In this document: positions 143 to 38,626 of the stretch, piece after piece
Numbering within the stretch: the stretch's first letter is position 1
Layout: every line of letters starts with the position of its first letter
From: Lacunisphaera sp.
GTDB lineage: Bacteria > Verrucomicrobiota > Verrucomicrobiia > Opitutales > Opitutaceae
Length of the DNA stretch: 64,000 nucleotides
Assembly: GCA_009695095.1 (NCBI GenBank)
Contig: SIBQ01000006.1
Span: 1-64,000 of the forward strand
Direction: 5' to 3'
The notes under the pieces: model-generated
The model's database searches: none
What the model was told of the DNA's origin: nothing
The model's input: only the letters and a program-made list of their open reading frames with translations
Translations under genes and position numbers: made by a program

Positions 143-478
143 GTCACCTCGTTCGACCGGCTGCGCCACCTGCAGGCGCACCGCTGGGCCTACGTGGTGG
201 CGCAGACACTCGCGGCGGATGGCGAGCCCGCCGCGCTCGCCCGGATTCAGTCAGTATTGGATGGCACCTTGCCCGTTTTCCAAGAGCCGTTGTCAGTGCG
301 CCGGGGATTGTAAAACTGCTGCTGCCGCCGCGTCGTGCAAAGTGCGCAGGCGTATCTCATGCTGGCCAAGCACGAGACCGCGGTCGCCTCGCAGTAGCTC
401 ATCAGTCAGGCCGAGGAGGACATCCGGGCGCAGGAGGCGAAGCTGAACCGCGACCTCGACGGCCACTTAAGGTTCTAA
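143..478 (+). pseudogene. decayed coding remnant next to the IS end
   Basis: One plus-strand frame starting at 143, with no start codon of its own, reads [20 protein letters not shown] onward to a stop at 311-313. It then resumes in the same frame as an Ala/Glu/Gln-rich, probably helical stretch (332-475) that is broken by TAG at 395-397 and ends at TAA 476-478. The gene appears to have lost its 5' part to the IS3 element and then gained stops. I do not recognise the family; the second half looks like coiled coil. Not translated as one protein. Confidence 0.45.
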
Positions 479-555
479 GTTGTAAGTTTTAAGCTGTAAG
501 TCGGAAAGCGCCGGTCATTCTTCTTGCTTAGAACTTAAACCTTACGCCCTTAAGT
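471..555. repeat. palindromic intergenic module, TAAG type
   Basis: A run of degenerate TAAGT words (471-500, for example TTCTAAGTTGTAAGTTTTAAG) is followed after about 30 bases by the same words in inverted orientation (CTTAGAACTTAAACCTTA, about 528-546). It is the same architecture as the hairpin modules elsewhere in the window but with a different word. It sits just before queF and leaves no room for a conventional ribosome binding site. Confidence 0.55.
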
Positions 556-925: not shown

Positions 926-1000
926 AACCGCAGAACACACGGAACACGCAGAAAATTGATTGGGTTTCGGGCTTCGGTGTGTTCCGTGTGTTCTGTGGTT
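926..1000. repeat. palindromic intergenic module, CACGGAACAC type
   Basis: The left arm (926-947, AACCGCAGAACACACGGAAC...) pairs with the right arm (979-1000, ...TTCCGTGTGTTCTGTGGTT) at 21 of 22 positions, with a loop of about 31 bases. The right arm overlaps the proposed GTG start of the next gene. This is one of several modules of the same word family in the window. Confidence 0.7.
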
Positions 1001-6827: not shown

Positions 6828-6853
6828 AGTAGCGAGTAGCGGGTGGAGAGTAG
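6828..6853. repeat. left arm of inverted repeat flanking a four-helix-bundle gene
   Basis: AGTAGCGAGTAGCG and then the degenerate GGTGGAGAGTAG form tandem copies of a GTAGCGA-like word. The first 14 bases match the reverse complement of the arm at 7237-7250 (AGTAGCGAGCAGTG) at 12 positions. The arm abuts the stop codon of the enclosed gene and reaches to within 7 bases of the gyrA start. Confidence 0.65.
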
Positions 6854-7219
6854 TTACGGGCTGTTGCGATCGAGGCCGTTGATGTAGCCTTGGAGCAGGC
6901 GAGAGACTTCTTCGAGGTCAGCTTGGAGCGCGGTGGTGTCGGTGTAGTTCAGGTCGTGCGCAAGTATGAGATGATAGAGGCACTCGTCGGCGGAGCCTTG
7001 GGCGATGTTGTAGAACTTCAGTTTATCGGGGGTGGTCCGTTTGCGGAAACCCTCGACGAAGTTGGCGGGAATGCTGGCCGCGGAGCGGCGGAGTTGCGAG
7101 GTAAGCGCGAAGAGCGCGTGCTTCGGGAACGGTTCCGAGGCGCGATAAACCGCGAGCGTGAACACGTGGGCTTTCTGCCACACGAGGACATCGCGGAAGG
7201 ATTGGGAATTGTCGGCCAT
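6854..7219 (-). CDS. four-helix-bundle protein (23S rRNA intervening-sequence / S23 family), copy 1
   Basis: The 121-residue protein has the family pattern: FRDVLVWQKA at the N terminus, FPKHALFALTSQLRRSAASI and PANFVEGF in helix 2-3, then GSADECLYHLILAHDL. The family (S23/IVP, related to the Avd accessory protein of diversity-generating retroelements) forms pentameric four-helix bundles with a positively charged face. Its molecular role outside retroelements is unknown. It lies between gyrB and gyrA on the same strand, flanked by inverted repeats on both sides (6828-6853 and 7220-7250) that fill all the space to its neighbours, so it looks inserted into an ancestral gyrBA operon. It is a divergent paralogue of the protein at 36299-36688. 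Confidence 0.9.
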   Translation of the reverse strand: MADNSQSFRDVLVWQKAHVFTLAVYRASEPFPKHALFALTSQLRRSAASIPANFVEGFRKRTTPDKLKFYNIAQGSADECLYHLILAHDLNYTDTTALQADLEEVSRLLQGYINGLDRNSP

Positions 7220-7249
7220 GCTCGCTAGTCGCTACTCACTGCTCGCTAC

Positions 7250-7250
<1 letters not shown>
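7220..7250. repeat. right arm of inverted repeat flanking a four-helix-bundle gene
   Basis: GCTCGCTAGTCGCTACTCAC and then TGCTCGCTACT are tandem degenerate words complementary to the GTAGCGA words at 6828-6853. The arm runs from directly upstream of the start codon of the enclosed gene to the gyrB stop codon (7250-7252). Confidence 0.65.
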
Positions 7251-10051
<2,801 letters not shown>

Positions 10052-10759: not shown

Positions 10760-11202
10760 TTTTGGGGCCAGATCTTCGCTCCGAGTTCTTTGATCCCAAG
10801 GCGCGGGTAATGCCGCGCCCGATAGAAGTTCGGAGAGGAAAGTCCGGACACCACAGGGCAGGATTCCCCGCGAAAGAGGGGGCGTGGCGCGTCAATACGC
10901 CATGACGGACAGTGTCACAGAGAATATACCGCCTGGCGGGCAACCGCCGGGTAAGGGTGAAAAGGTGGGGTAAGAGCCCACCGCGCCGGAAGCAATGACG
11001 GCGGCACGAAAAACCCAATCCGGTGCAAGACTAAATAGGGGACTCGGTGGCCCGTCGGACAGTCCCGGGTTAGTCGCATTCCGCGGCGCCAGCGCAAGCT
11101 GGCAGCCCGGAGAGGCCGGGCCTTCGGGCACGCCTAGAGAAATGAAGATCACGCCGCCTTAAAACCGTGGCAGACAGAATCCGGCTTACCGGCCCCAAAA
11201 CT
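10758..11202 (+). ncRNA. rnpB: RNase P RNA (type A)
   Basis: This is the catalytic RNA that removes 5' leaders from tRNA precursors. The universal core is present: GAGAGGAAAGTCCGGACA at about 10833-10850 (P4 5' strand and J regions) and ACAGAATCCGGCTTAC at about 11174-11189 (P4 3' strand). The ends pair as helix P1: GTTTTGGGGCC at 10759-10769 with GGCCCCAAAAC at 11191-11201. About 445 nt is at the long end for type A. The P1 strand begins within the stop codon of the upstream gene, so the RNA is probably released from or transcribed within a shared transcript. Confidence 0.95.
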
Positions 11203-34288: not shown

Positions 34289-35800
<1,512 letters not shown>

Positions 35801-35819
35801 GGGGGGAGTCGCGGCGGCC

Positions 35820-36275
35820 TTAGAAATGGCTTGGCTTGCGCTGCAGGAACCGGCCGCGACCGAGCGTGCCGCAGAACCTGCCGTCGCGCACCGCGACCTC
35901 GCCGCGGACCGTGACATCGCAGGCCGACTTGCCGACAGCCTGGCTCATCCAGAGTTCAAAGCTCTTGAGCGCGTCGTCGGCCCGCGACGGGCAGCACATC
36001 TCGATGAGCGTCGTTGTGCCACCGACCAGCGCGGCCTTCGAGCCGGTCTCATAGGTGTCCTTGGAAAACGTGCCCATGAAGGGCAGGTAGATGTGGACGT
36101 GCGGGTCGATGAACCCGGGAAAGACGTATTTGCCACGAGCATCAATTGTTTCGGTCCCTGGAGGTGCCGATAGATTCTTATCAATGCGGGTGATCTGTTC
36201 TCCTTCGCAGAAAATATCCGCTACATAACGGCTGTCGGCGGTGATTATCTCGCCGTTCTTGATGAGGAGTGACAT
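35820..36275 (-). pseudogene. dihydropyrimidinase / hydantoinase with large internal in-frame deletion
   Basis: From ATG 36275 the 151-residue product starts as a normal dihydropyrimidinase: MSLLIKNGEIITADSRYVAD, GKYVFPGFIDPHVHIYLPFM with the two metal-binding His (DPHVH), and ALVGGTTTLIEMCCPSRADD. After WMSQAVGKSACD at about residue 120 it jumps directly to VTVRGEVAVRDGRFCGTLGR, which in the family lies near the C terminus of a 460-residue protein. About 310 residues, including the carboxylated lysine, two further metal-binding His and the catalytic Asp, are missing. The reading frame is kept, so a short protein may be made, but it cannot be an active hydrolase. Confidence 0.85.
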
Positions 36276-36279
36276 GTGG

Positions 36280-36293
36280 CGTGTGACTTGTGA
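36280..36293. repeat. left arm of perfect 14-bp inverted repeat flanking four-helix-bundle gene 2
   Basis: CGTGTGACTTGTGA, within a run of GTGAC-like words starting at 36270, is the exact reverse complement of 36702-36715. It lies 5 bases past the stop codon of the enclosed gene. Confidence 0.8.
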
Positions 36294-36298
36294 CGAGT

Positions 36299-36688
36299 TC
36301 AGGGAAAGCCGGAAAGCTTTCGGCGGAGCCCATTGAGCATCCGGCGAAGATCGCCGAGGAGCTCGAAGCACGCGGTTGCCTGCTGTTCGGAAGCGAACCC
36401 GAGTTCAACCGCCAGATGGAGCTGGGTGTCCAGCTCAGCGACCGAGCCCTCGGCGTGTGATATAAACTGGATGAACTCACCTGTCGTGTGCCTGGCTTGG
36501 CCTTCGGCGATATTCGAAGAGATGGAGACCGATGCACGCCGCATCTGTGAGACCAGTCCGAACTTTTCGTCCGATGGAAACGTCCTGGTAAGAGCGTAGA
36601 TAAGCTTGGCGAGAGCAATGCCCTTCTGCCATACGACCAGATCGCGATATCCGTCAGCCTTGGGATTCTCGAATTTGAGTGGTTTCAT
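36299..36688 (-). CDS. four-helix-bundle protein (S23 / IVP family), copy 2
   Basis: The 129-residue protein shares the family pattern with copy 1 at 6854-7219: YRDLVVWQKGIALAKLIY, TFPSDEKFGLVSQMRRASVS, SISSNIAEGQARHTTGEFIQ, GSVAELDTQLHLAVELGF. Identity between the copies is low, so they are not a recent duplication. It is located between a truncated dihydropyrimidinase and methylmalonate-semialdehyde dehydrogenase on the same strand, enclosed by a perfect 14-base inverted repeat. No function can be assigned beyond the family fold. Confidence 0.9.
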   Translation of the reverse strand: MKPLKFENPKADGYRDLVVWQKGIALAKLIYALTRTFPSDEKFGLVSQMRRASVSISSNIAEGQARHTTGEFIQFISHAEGSVAELDTQLHLAVELGFASEQQATACFELLGDLRRMLNGLRRKLSGFP

Positions 36689-36701
36689 TGCGCGTCACAT
36701 T

Positions 36702-36715
36702 TCACAAGTCACACG
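36702..36715. repeat. right arm of perfect 14-bp inverted repeat flanking four-helix-bundle gene 2
   Basis: TCACAAGTCACACG, embedded in tandem GTCAC words (about 36693-36720), pairs perfectly with 36280-36293. It begins 13 bases upstream of the enclosed gene's start codon. Confidence 0.8.
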
Positions 36716-36730
36716 TCACAGCGCTTCGCG

Positions 36731-38389
<1,659 letters not shown>

Positions 38390-38410
38390 TTGATAATACG
38401 GGTGAAACTA

Positions 38411-38626
38411 TCAGTTGCGCCCAGTGTGGGCGGGTGGGTTAAATAGACGGTGCGGACTAAGGGAGGCGCCGACAAACTGTCCGAGGCCCCAACGGATGAG
38501 CCGCAAGTTGAGGTAATTGCGGCCGGCGCGAAAAACGCGGACGGAGCCCGGTGCGCCAAACGGCGGCGTGGGTTCAGGGGGCACGCGCAGGACTCCCAGC
38601 GCCCAGGTGCGGATGCGGTCAAACAT
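38411..38626 (-). pseudogene. second PH-domain (bPH2/DUF304-type) protein, truncated
   Basis: ATG 38626 overlaps the stop of the preceding PH-domain frame. The 71-residue product begins MFDRIRTWALGVLRVPPEPT, FGAPGSVRVFRAGRNYLNLR and breaks off at the start of its first membrane segment (WGLGQFVGA), followed by unrelated residues. Paired genes of this kind normally encode full-length membrane PH-domain proteins. This copy has lost most of its length. Family assignment rests on resemblance and on the coupling to its neighbour. Confidence 0.5.

Follow-up and report, generated by a model that had tools for sequence, protein, structure and literature searches.

Candidate mobile word-protein pairs formed by S23 genes and inverted arrays of short tandem words

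Closest described systems and the S23 element of the window

In REP/RAYT systems, inverted copies of a short word flank a protein gene, and the word is also dispersed without the gene; the RAYT protein is a Y1 HUH transposase, and REPs are single palindromes. Heptad repeats of cyanobacteria, known as STRR, were reportedly described by Mazel in 1990. The 23S rRNA intervening sequences of Coxiella and Leptospira hold a gene of the S23 protein family inside terminal inverted repeats; according to the available text of PMC4990558, the S23 gene of Coxiella lies in an intervening sequence whose 28-bp terminal stem is cut by RNase III, three tandem heptamers (GACAGAT) precede its start codon, and the Xanthomonas S23 protein Xcc0516 is a pentamer. 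For Xanthomonas and Nostoc, orphan heptad arrays are on record as simple repeats that form quadruplexes (PMC4692102), and those of Geobacter metallireducens (GGGACCG; PMC2700814) were presumed to be regulatory; the portions of these two papers at hand name no protein for them. The resemblance of the S23 family (PF05635) to Avd has already been noted in print (PMC10053308, in part), and a figure legend names the family among the associations of CRISPR adaptation modules (PMC10910872, in part). The S23 intervening sequences, the Coxiella heptamers, the Xcc0516 ring and the heptad arrays were thus known apart, and what is new here is their joining: a literature search, with preprints and most subscription papers outside its scope, found no paper that connects word arrays to S23 or GxxExxY proteins, including the available text of PMC8700078 and PMC8934634.

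The S23 gene under study (copy 2) lies in the window, by which we mean the whole stretch of 64,000 nucleotides of Lacunisphaera sp. DNA that was analysed. Its element comprises:

36299..36688, minus strand: S23 / four-helix-bundle gene (PF05635, TIGR02436), 129 aa, from the ORF, profile matches and an AlphaFold2 model
36269..36296, plus strand: left arm, four 7-base words (GTGACAT GTGGCGT GTGACTT GTGACGA)
36692..36719, minus strand: right arm, 5' of the S23 start codon, four 7-base words (GTGACGT GTGACTT GTGAAAT GTGACGC)

The protein is a member of PF05635 (23S_rRNA_IVP; E=1.2e-36, 125.6 bits, cut-off 33.8) and of TIGR02436 (four helix bundle protein; 120.3 bits, cut-off 24). Its AlphaFold2 monomer model (pLDDT 93.4) has the four-helix-bundle fold and is best matched by 2GSC (Xcc0516 of Xanthomonas; TM 0.85/0.94, rmsd 0.7); it also resembles BT_0352 (2RLD), Avd (4DWL; TM 0.75/0.89) and the Avd chains of the reverse-transcriptase RNP of diversity-generating retroelements, e.g. 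8UBE. The likeness to Avd extends to a weak sequence match, but the scores stay below the Avd cut-offs (DivGenRetAVD, PF22296, 27.1 bits vs 80; bAvd, 26.7 vs 40), and inspection by eye of the ORFs in 34500-38500 revealed neither a reverse transcriptase nor a template/variable repeat.

Both arms are made of GTGACNN heptads, four per arm and in inverted order, which yield an inverted repeat of 19 nt at 95% (36275-36293 / 36702-36720) or, in a longer version, of 27 nt at 81% (36269-36295 / 36693-36719). The original prediction had placed exact 14-base inverted arms at 36280-36293 and 36702-36715, where we find them as well, and had described them as tandem GTGAC words; the GTGAC repeats are real, but the true unit of 7 bases had been overlooked, as had the extension of the left arm over the neighbour's start codon and two gene-less inverted word elements elsewhere in the window. 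Allowing up to 2 mismatches, GTGACNNGTGACNNGTGA has 5 sites in the 64-kb window, all within or overlapping the two arms of copy 2, against an expectation of 0.37, and five sites were reached in 0/100 shuffles. The inverted-arm score of copy 2 is 17, compared with a shuffle maximum of 13 (one shuffle each, 114 loci). In the predicted RNA fold the two arms pair to form the stem that closes the element (MFE -172.5 kcal/mol, z = -2.89).

Copy 2 shares with the 23S rRNA intervening sequences an S23 ORF within terminal inverted repeats, but it differs from them in its site, which lies between protein genes: a methylmalonate-semialdehyde dehydrogenase gene (TIGR01722) and a dihydropyrimidinase-like gene, whose start codon (36273-36275, minus) is overlapped by the left arm, and neither of the window's two Rfam matches is an rRNA. 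With REP/RAYT it shares the architecture of inverted flanking words and, as described below, dispersed words, so that the likeness originally proposed holds to that extent; it does not extend to homology, since the protein matches PF05635 and bAvd only and is no Y1 HUH (IS200-like) transposase. S23 is instead a four-helix bundle in which no active site is known, and the arms are tandem words of 6-8 bases rather than single palindromes. Lacking both the HUH transposase and the rRNA location, the element therefore fits neither system.

The dihydropyrimidinase-like gene itself (35820-36275, minus, 151 aa) aligns only to positions 1-119 of a 454-position model. In relatives such as those at L270, L272 and L273 the reading frame extends further into the enzyme, so the window's gene seems to have lost a large internal stretch, either genuinely or as an assembly matter.

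Tandem-word arms across S23 loci

A second S23 gene (copy 1) and the two gene-less elements were located as follows:

6854..7219, minus strand: S23 copy 1, 121 aa (TIGR02436, 113.3 bits)
6828..6853, plus strand: left arm of copy 1, GTAGCGA words, from an inverted-repeat search
7221..7251, minus strand: right arm of copy 1, GTAGCGA words, from an inverted-repeat search
465..555, no strand: gene-less inverted heptad element with words such as GTTCTAA and GTTTTAA (arms 465-494 and 526-555, 80% complementary)
926..1000, no strand: gene-less inverted element with ~9-base words of the CACGGAACA type (arms 926-953 and 973-1000, 89% complementary)

The arms of copy 1 also have period 7. Its GTAGCGA words differ from those of copy 2, as originally stated, and the two proteins are distantly similar as claimed, their domains being 33% identical; the same architecture is indeed present twice, but to call the insertions unrelated was too strong, as the proteins belong to one family. 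The gene-less elements lie on either side of a QueF gene (565-921, TIGR03139), 465-555 just before it and 926-1000 just after it. The word of the former is absent from the arms of all seven arm-bearing S23 genes of the window's genome, and similar words occur at three S23 loci of relatives (L010, L016, L019); the latter resembles in kind the arrays beside PF13366 genes. The window further contains an RNase P RNA of bacterial class A at 10805-11200.

Eight PF05635 matches (L001-L008) are found in the window's genome, with inverted-arm scores of 17, 24, 14, 16, 13, 17, 16 and 9, respectively, against a cross-locus 95th percentile of 13.05. Six of the eight loci are clear; L005 is borderline by score, yet has word arrays on both sides (by eye), and L008 has in-frame stops, a score under the cut-off and no inverted arms. 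As each clear locus carries a different word (e.g. GTGACTT, GGAGACC, GTAGCGA, GTGAGGY, GCAGTGA, ACGTCCA), no single word characterises the genome as a whole.

The comparison was widened to 201 S23 loci, comprising 116 from a genome set, 80 from named species and 5 from cyanobacterial plasmids (out of 30 records found). The genome set covers 38 genomes including the window's own, 27 of which have an S23 match, and 116 of the 157 matches, mostly the stronger ones, were read; the named-species set is the best 80 of 573 matches to the Xcc0516 region and so favours relatives of Xcc0516. By record title, these best 80 of 573 come from Xanthomonas and other Pseudomonadota, Bacteroidota, Nitrospirota, Planctomycetota, Spirochaetes, Cloacimonadota, candidate phyla and ANME-1 archaea.

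A tandem-word array is present in at least one flank of 194/201 S23 loci, so the absence of arms around most homologues, which would have spoken against the original prediction, is not what we see. Periodic arrays occupy 332/394 S23 flanks, compared with 43/379 control stretches taken 350 bp further out, and among these 332 the period is 7 in 255, 8 in 42 and 6 in 24. Upstream and downstream periods agree as 7-7 at 102 loci, 8-8 at 17, 6-6 at 8 and 9-9 at 1, and disagree at 10. Inverted arms (score >=14) flank 162/190 S23 genes but only 7/259 other ORFs of the same loci, in a comparison that took in 190 of the 201 loci. A locus's own upstream and downstream arms score above the crossed 95th percentile in 98/114 cases in the genome set and in 59/81 among the named-species and plasmid loci (114 of 116 and 81 of 85 loci were usable); no clear inverted arms were found at L008, L046, L054 and L213. 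On the evidence of the shuffles, the control flanks and the other ORFs, chance simple repeats were rejected as the source of the arms. The number of word units per array has its mode at 4, followed by 5, and these counts lend no support to the idea of five words, with each subunit in a pentamer taking up one. At one locus (L106) an additional GC-rich palindrome (GGGCGCTACCGCGCC) stands beside the words in both arms.

Orientation was analysed at 99 of the 201 loci. Between co-directional neighbours, S23 is in sense at 59 loci and in antisense at 7. Co-orientation with neighbours in general (75/99 and 76/99) barely exceeds the background of 170/241 pairs and was dropped as a signal, the bias being confined to sites between co-directional neighbours.

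Covariation, copies and solo arrays

Among pairs of loci without homologous neighbours, those with at least 60% protein identity share a word in 28/45 cases, compared with 1-4% of pairs in each lower identity bin; when arms were permuted 2000 times within genomes, such pairs averaged 4.06 and never exceeded 14, in a test on 103 loci with an arm score of at least 13 that favours loci with arms. The lack of any correlation between protein clade and flanking word, named at the outset as grounds for giving up the idea of a matched pair, can thus be set aside. At the threshold used, 17/45 close pairs, up to 82% identical, have no word in common, which indicates that words can change quickly. Array period likewise follows the protein tree, with 9 changes against a shuffled mean of 23.1 and a minimum of 20 (500 shuffles; 125 loci whose flanks agree in period 6, 7 or 8, a result inflated by related loci at the same site).

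Common words among close homologues could reflect inheritance of a linked unit, an account that leaves solo arrays and paired drift of arms unexplained. Among pairs with homologous neighbours, which need not mean one ancestral insertion, the two arms of one locus score 22.6, against 13.5 for the upstream arms of the two loci, when the proteins are 50-65% identical (n=55), and 20.8 against 21.4 between loci above 80% identity (n=19), own-arm scores being favoured by the way arms are defined. Judged from the sequences, a locus keeps its two arms in step with each other even as they diverge from those of related loci, and linked inheritance alone is therefore insufficient.

Dispersed copies end at the arms. 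In one genome (G031), two loci (L009 and L035) match over the whole stretch bounded by and including their arms (453 bp, 92.7%) and differ in their flanks; a shorter copy (L068) is 89-92% alike in most aligned stretches and 76% over 115 bp against L035, which also holds a deletion derivative with both arms and the gene start only (84 bp, 97.6% to L009). At the window's junction, the window's own genome (G000) and two others (G011, G005) have the element, and G001 lacks it, with a stop-start gap of 22 nt. The same junction holds in G016 (L276) a partial S23-like gene of another clade (E=2.7e-7), cut by the contig end and preceded by the words ATAACGA/ATGACGA (by eye), and in G004, G012, G013 and G019 gene-less inverted repeats (by eye). 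No target-site duplication was seen by eye at the G031 copies or at the window's own junction. Long GGGAATC arrays, for their part, are not beside the same genes in two Xanthomonas species, according to the part of PMC4692102 available.

Words also recur as arrays away from any gene of their own. Doublets of GGGAATC number 188, 208, 86, 244, 91, 140, 17, 19 and 79 in nine genomes with S23 arms of the GGGAATC/GGGATTC type, and among 36 other genomes there are none in 34 and one in two. GTTATTC is counted 70 times in the genome it comes from, once in one other and not at all in 43. GTGATTS doublets reach 61 in their own genome, 79, 47 and 61 in G043, G044 and G063, and at most 12 elsewhere; an S23 gene with GTGATTG arms, expected in these last three although the expectation was unrecorded beforehand, is present in G063 (L262) and was not found in G043 and G044, which have a single S23 gene each, with GGGAAT arms. 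As some S23 arms of Xanthomonas relatives mix GGGAAT, GGGATT and GTGATT, one clade may read all three, an explanation of G043 and G044 that came after the fact. TTAGTGG was the weakest of the four words tried: its doublets number 14 in its own genome, three other genomes have one each, and its reversed control is not neutral because it reads as a GTGATT word (up to 56 in GTGATT-rich genomes). As a separate candidate, GTGACNNGTGACNNGTGAC in G024 was set aside as a dispersed word, with 21 matches against 31 for its reversed control. In the window's genome the GTGAC word occurs at two further places, so that the REP/RAYT trait of gene-less dispersed copies is there, weakly. Two solo arrays in this genome (G000 C23:63727 and C28:4554) have no inverted partner in about 200 bases before or 480 after (by eye).

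Among the best 80 of 573 matches, the S23 arms of five named Xanthomonas species have GGGAATC as their word. The orphan GGGAATC heptads published for Xanthomonas are thereby linked to an S23 gene, and these heptads, as far as PMC4692102 was available, share with S23 arms the period of 7, mostly four units, inverted pairs and a largely intergenic location. Among 80 relatives of one Xanthomonas, an S23 match was found in 37/39 genomes with at least 5 GGGAATC doublets (in G111 as fragments only), compared with 14/41 with fewer, by a hand count from tables with no phylogenetic correction; G104 has neither arrays nor an S23 match. One S23 locus per genome was read here, though some genomes hold two to five: in 24 of the 37 genomes, 18 loci had GGGAAT/GGGATT arms and 6 another G-rich word, and in six of the 14 low-doublet genomes matched arms of the GGGAAT type were found at 0/6 loci, with 1-3 stray units in three. 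There are exceptions: G088 and G105 have 25 and 41 GGGAATC doublets and no S23 match, G111 has 15 and S23 fragments only, and G099, G137 and G146 (22, 35 and 9 doublets) have a single S23 gene each, armed with another G-rich word. Together with the covariation, the solo arrays of resident words in several genomes support, with these exceptions, the original proposal that each protein is matched to its arm word.

Two S23 genes occur in Xanthomonas dyei (G040), one with GGGAATC arms and one (L203) with GGGGACC arms (L119 and L203), and the latter recall the orphan heptad GGGACCG of Geobacter metallireducens (PMC2700814, in part). G097 and G093 have two S23 matches each, of which the GGGGACC one was read (L202, L204).

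The exceptions bear on whether the arrays form an independent repeat family, be it simple repeats, G4 elements or regulator sites, between which S23 genes were caught by chance or into which they inserted. The published quadruplex heptads of Xanthomonas and Nostoc (PMC4692102) and regulatory elements of Geobacter metallireducens (PMC2700814), each seen in part, point that way, as do the arrays without a matching S23 gene in some genomes. We nevertheless hold this to be very improbable, since S23 genes within one genome carry different words, the arms are mostly inverted, the word tracks the protein and elements are copied from arm to arm.

Alternatively, the arms might serve solely to form an RNA hairpin like that of the 23S intervening sequences, which RNase III would cut and whose loop would carry S23 as a passenger. 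This would accord with the predicted closing stem of copy 2, with the RNase III cleavage in Coxiella (PMC4990558, in part) and with arms that remain matched within a locus as they drift, but a hairpin requires no tandem 7-base period, and periodic arrays are the most constant feature of these loci. Nor does it explain why the word follows the protein clade and recurs genome-wide. Given the tandem period and the single arrays left over, the hairpin is rejected as a sufficient account, and in its pure form it appears unlikely.

A second protein family and the proposed working of the elements

Because the gene-less inverted repeats at the window's junction have words of ~9 bases, we examined PF13366 (PDDEXK_3), which corresponds in NCBIfam to GxxExxY (TIGR04256), as checked on one member. 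Thirty loci (L299-L328) were fetched from more than 100 matches, and in 27/30 the inverted arms exceed the crossed 95th percentile. These arms have about three words, e.g. CACGAAGNN, with a best lag mostly of 8-10 and most commonly 9; as 9 is a multiple of the codon length too, firmer evidence comes from the inverted match than from the lag. An unrelated family with the same arm plan implies that the protein need not be S23.

This shared plan also fits a scheme in which another factor acting in trans, such as a reverse transcriptase, a nuclease or a transposase, reads the word and S23 only assists, as Avd does. The match of the copy 2 model to Avd and to the 8UBE chains, and its build as a plain helical bundle, lend it some weight. 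On the other hand, one factor per clade would be needed, because the word tracks the S23 clade and several clades share a genome, and elements of ~450 bp have no room for a second full gene. We regard such a factor as a possible but rather unlikely reader of the word.

We consider it probable that the elements are mobile S23-word pairs, resembling REP/RAYT in their working and built on a non-catalytic, Avd-like protein. The mobile element would be a unit of ~450 bp, an S23 gene between two inverted tandem-word arrays, in which word and protein form a matched pair. The protein, whose fold forms five-membered rings (Xcc0516, 2GSC) and in Avd is part of a reverse-transcriptase RNP, would most likely recognise its own word in runs of about 4-5 units, on either RNA or DNA, presumably as a ring on the array. 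The elements appear to insert between genes, mostly in operon sense, and S23 would probably be expressed by read-through, as the sense bias of 59 to 7 suggests. Gene-less arrays and inverted pairs may be non-autonomous relatives served in trans. As S23 is a bare helical bundle, the moving enzyme is guessed to be separate, a reverse transcriptase or nuclease acting in trans. Clade-specific words, sites between protein genes and solo arrays that would be served in trans set these elements apart from the 23S rRNA intervening sequences.

On a broader claim our judgement is evenly balanced: that bacteria and archaea harbour mobile elements of a common class, each with a small non-catalytic protein that assembles into rings and reads a clade-specific tandem word of 6-8 bases, that this class explains the orphan heptads known for decades from Xanthomonas, Geobacter and cyanobacteria, and that the unrelated PF13366 family reached the same plan with ~9-base words. 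PF05635, a frequent family annotated as 'four helix bundle protein', thereby gains a testable candidate function as reader of its own flanking word, and a source is offered for heptad repeats previously called quadruplex or regulatory elements. If the pairs are real, their natural co-variation over many clades would be a data set on nucleic-acid reading by helical rings, and possibly a set of orthogonal binding pairs.

Among the cyanobacterial plasmid loci, one S23 gene with heptads (L198) is found within a CRISPR cas operon, where cas6 and cas4 flank it, and its downstream words seem to fall inside the annotated start of cas4.
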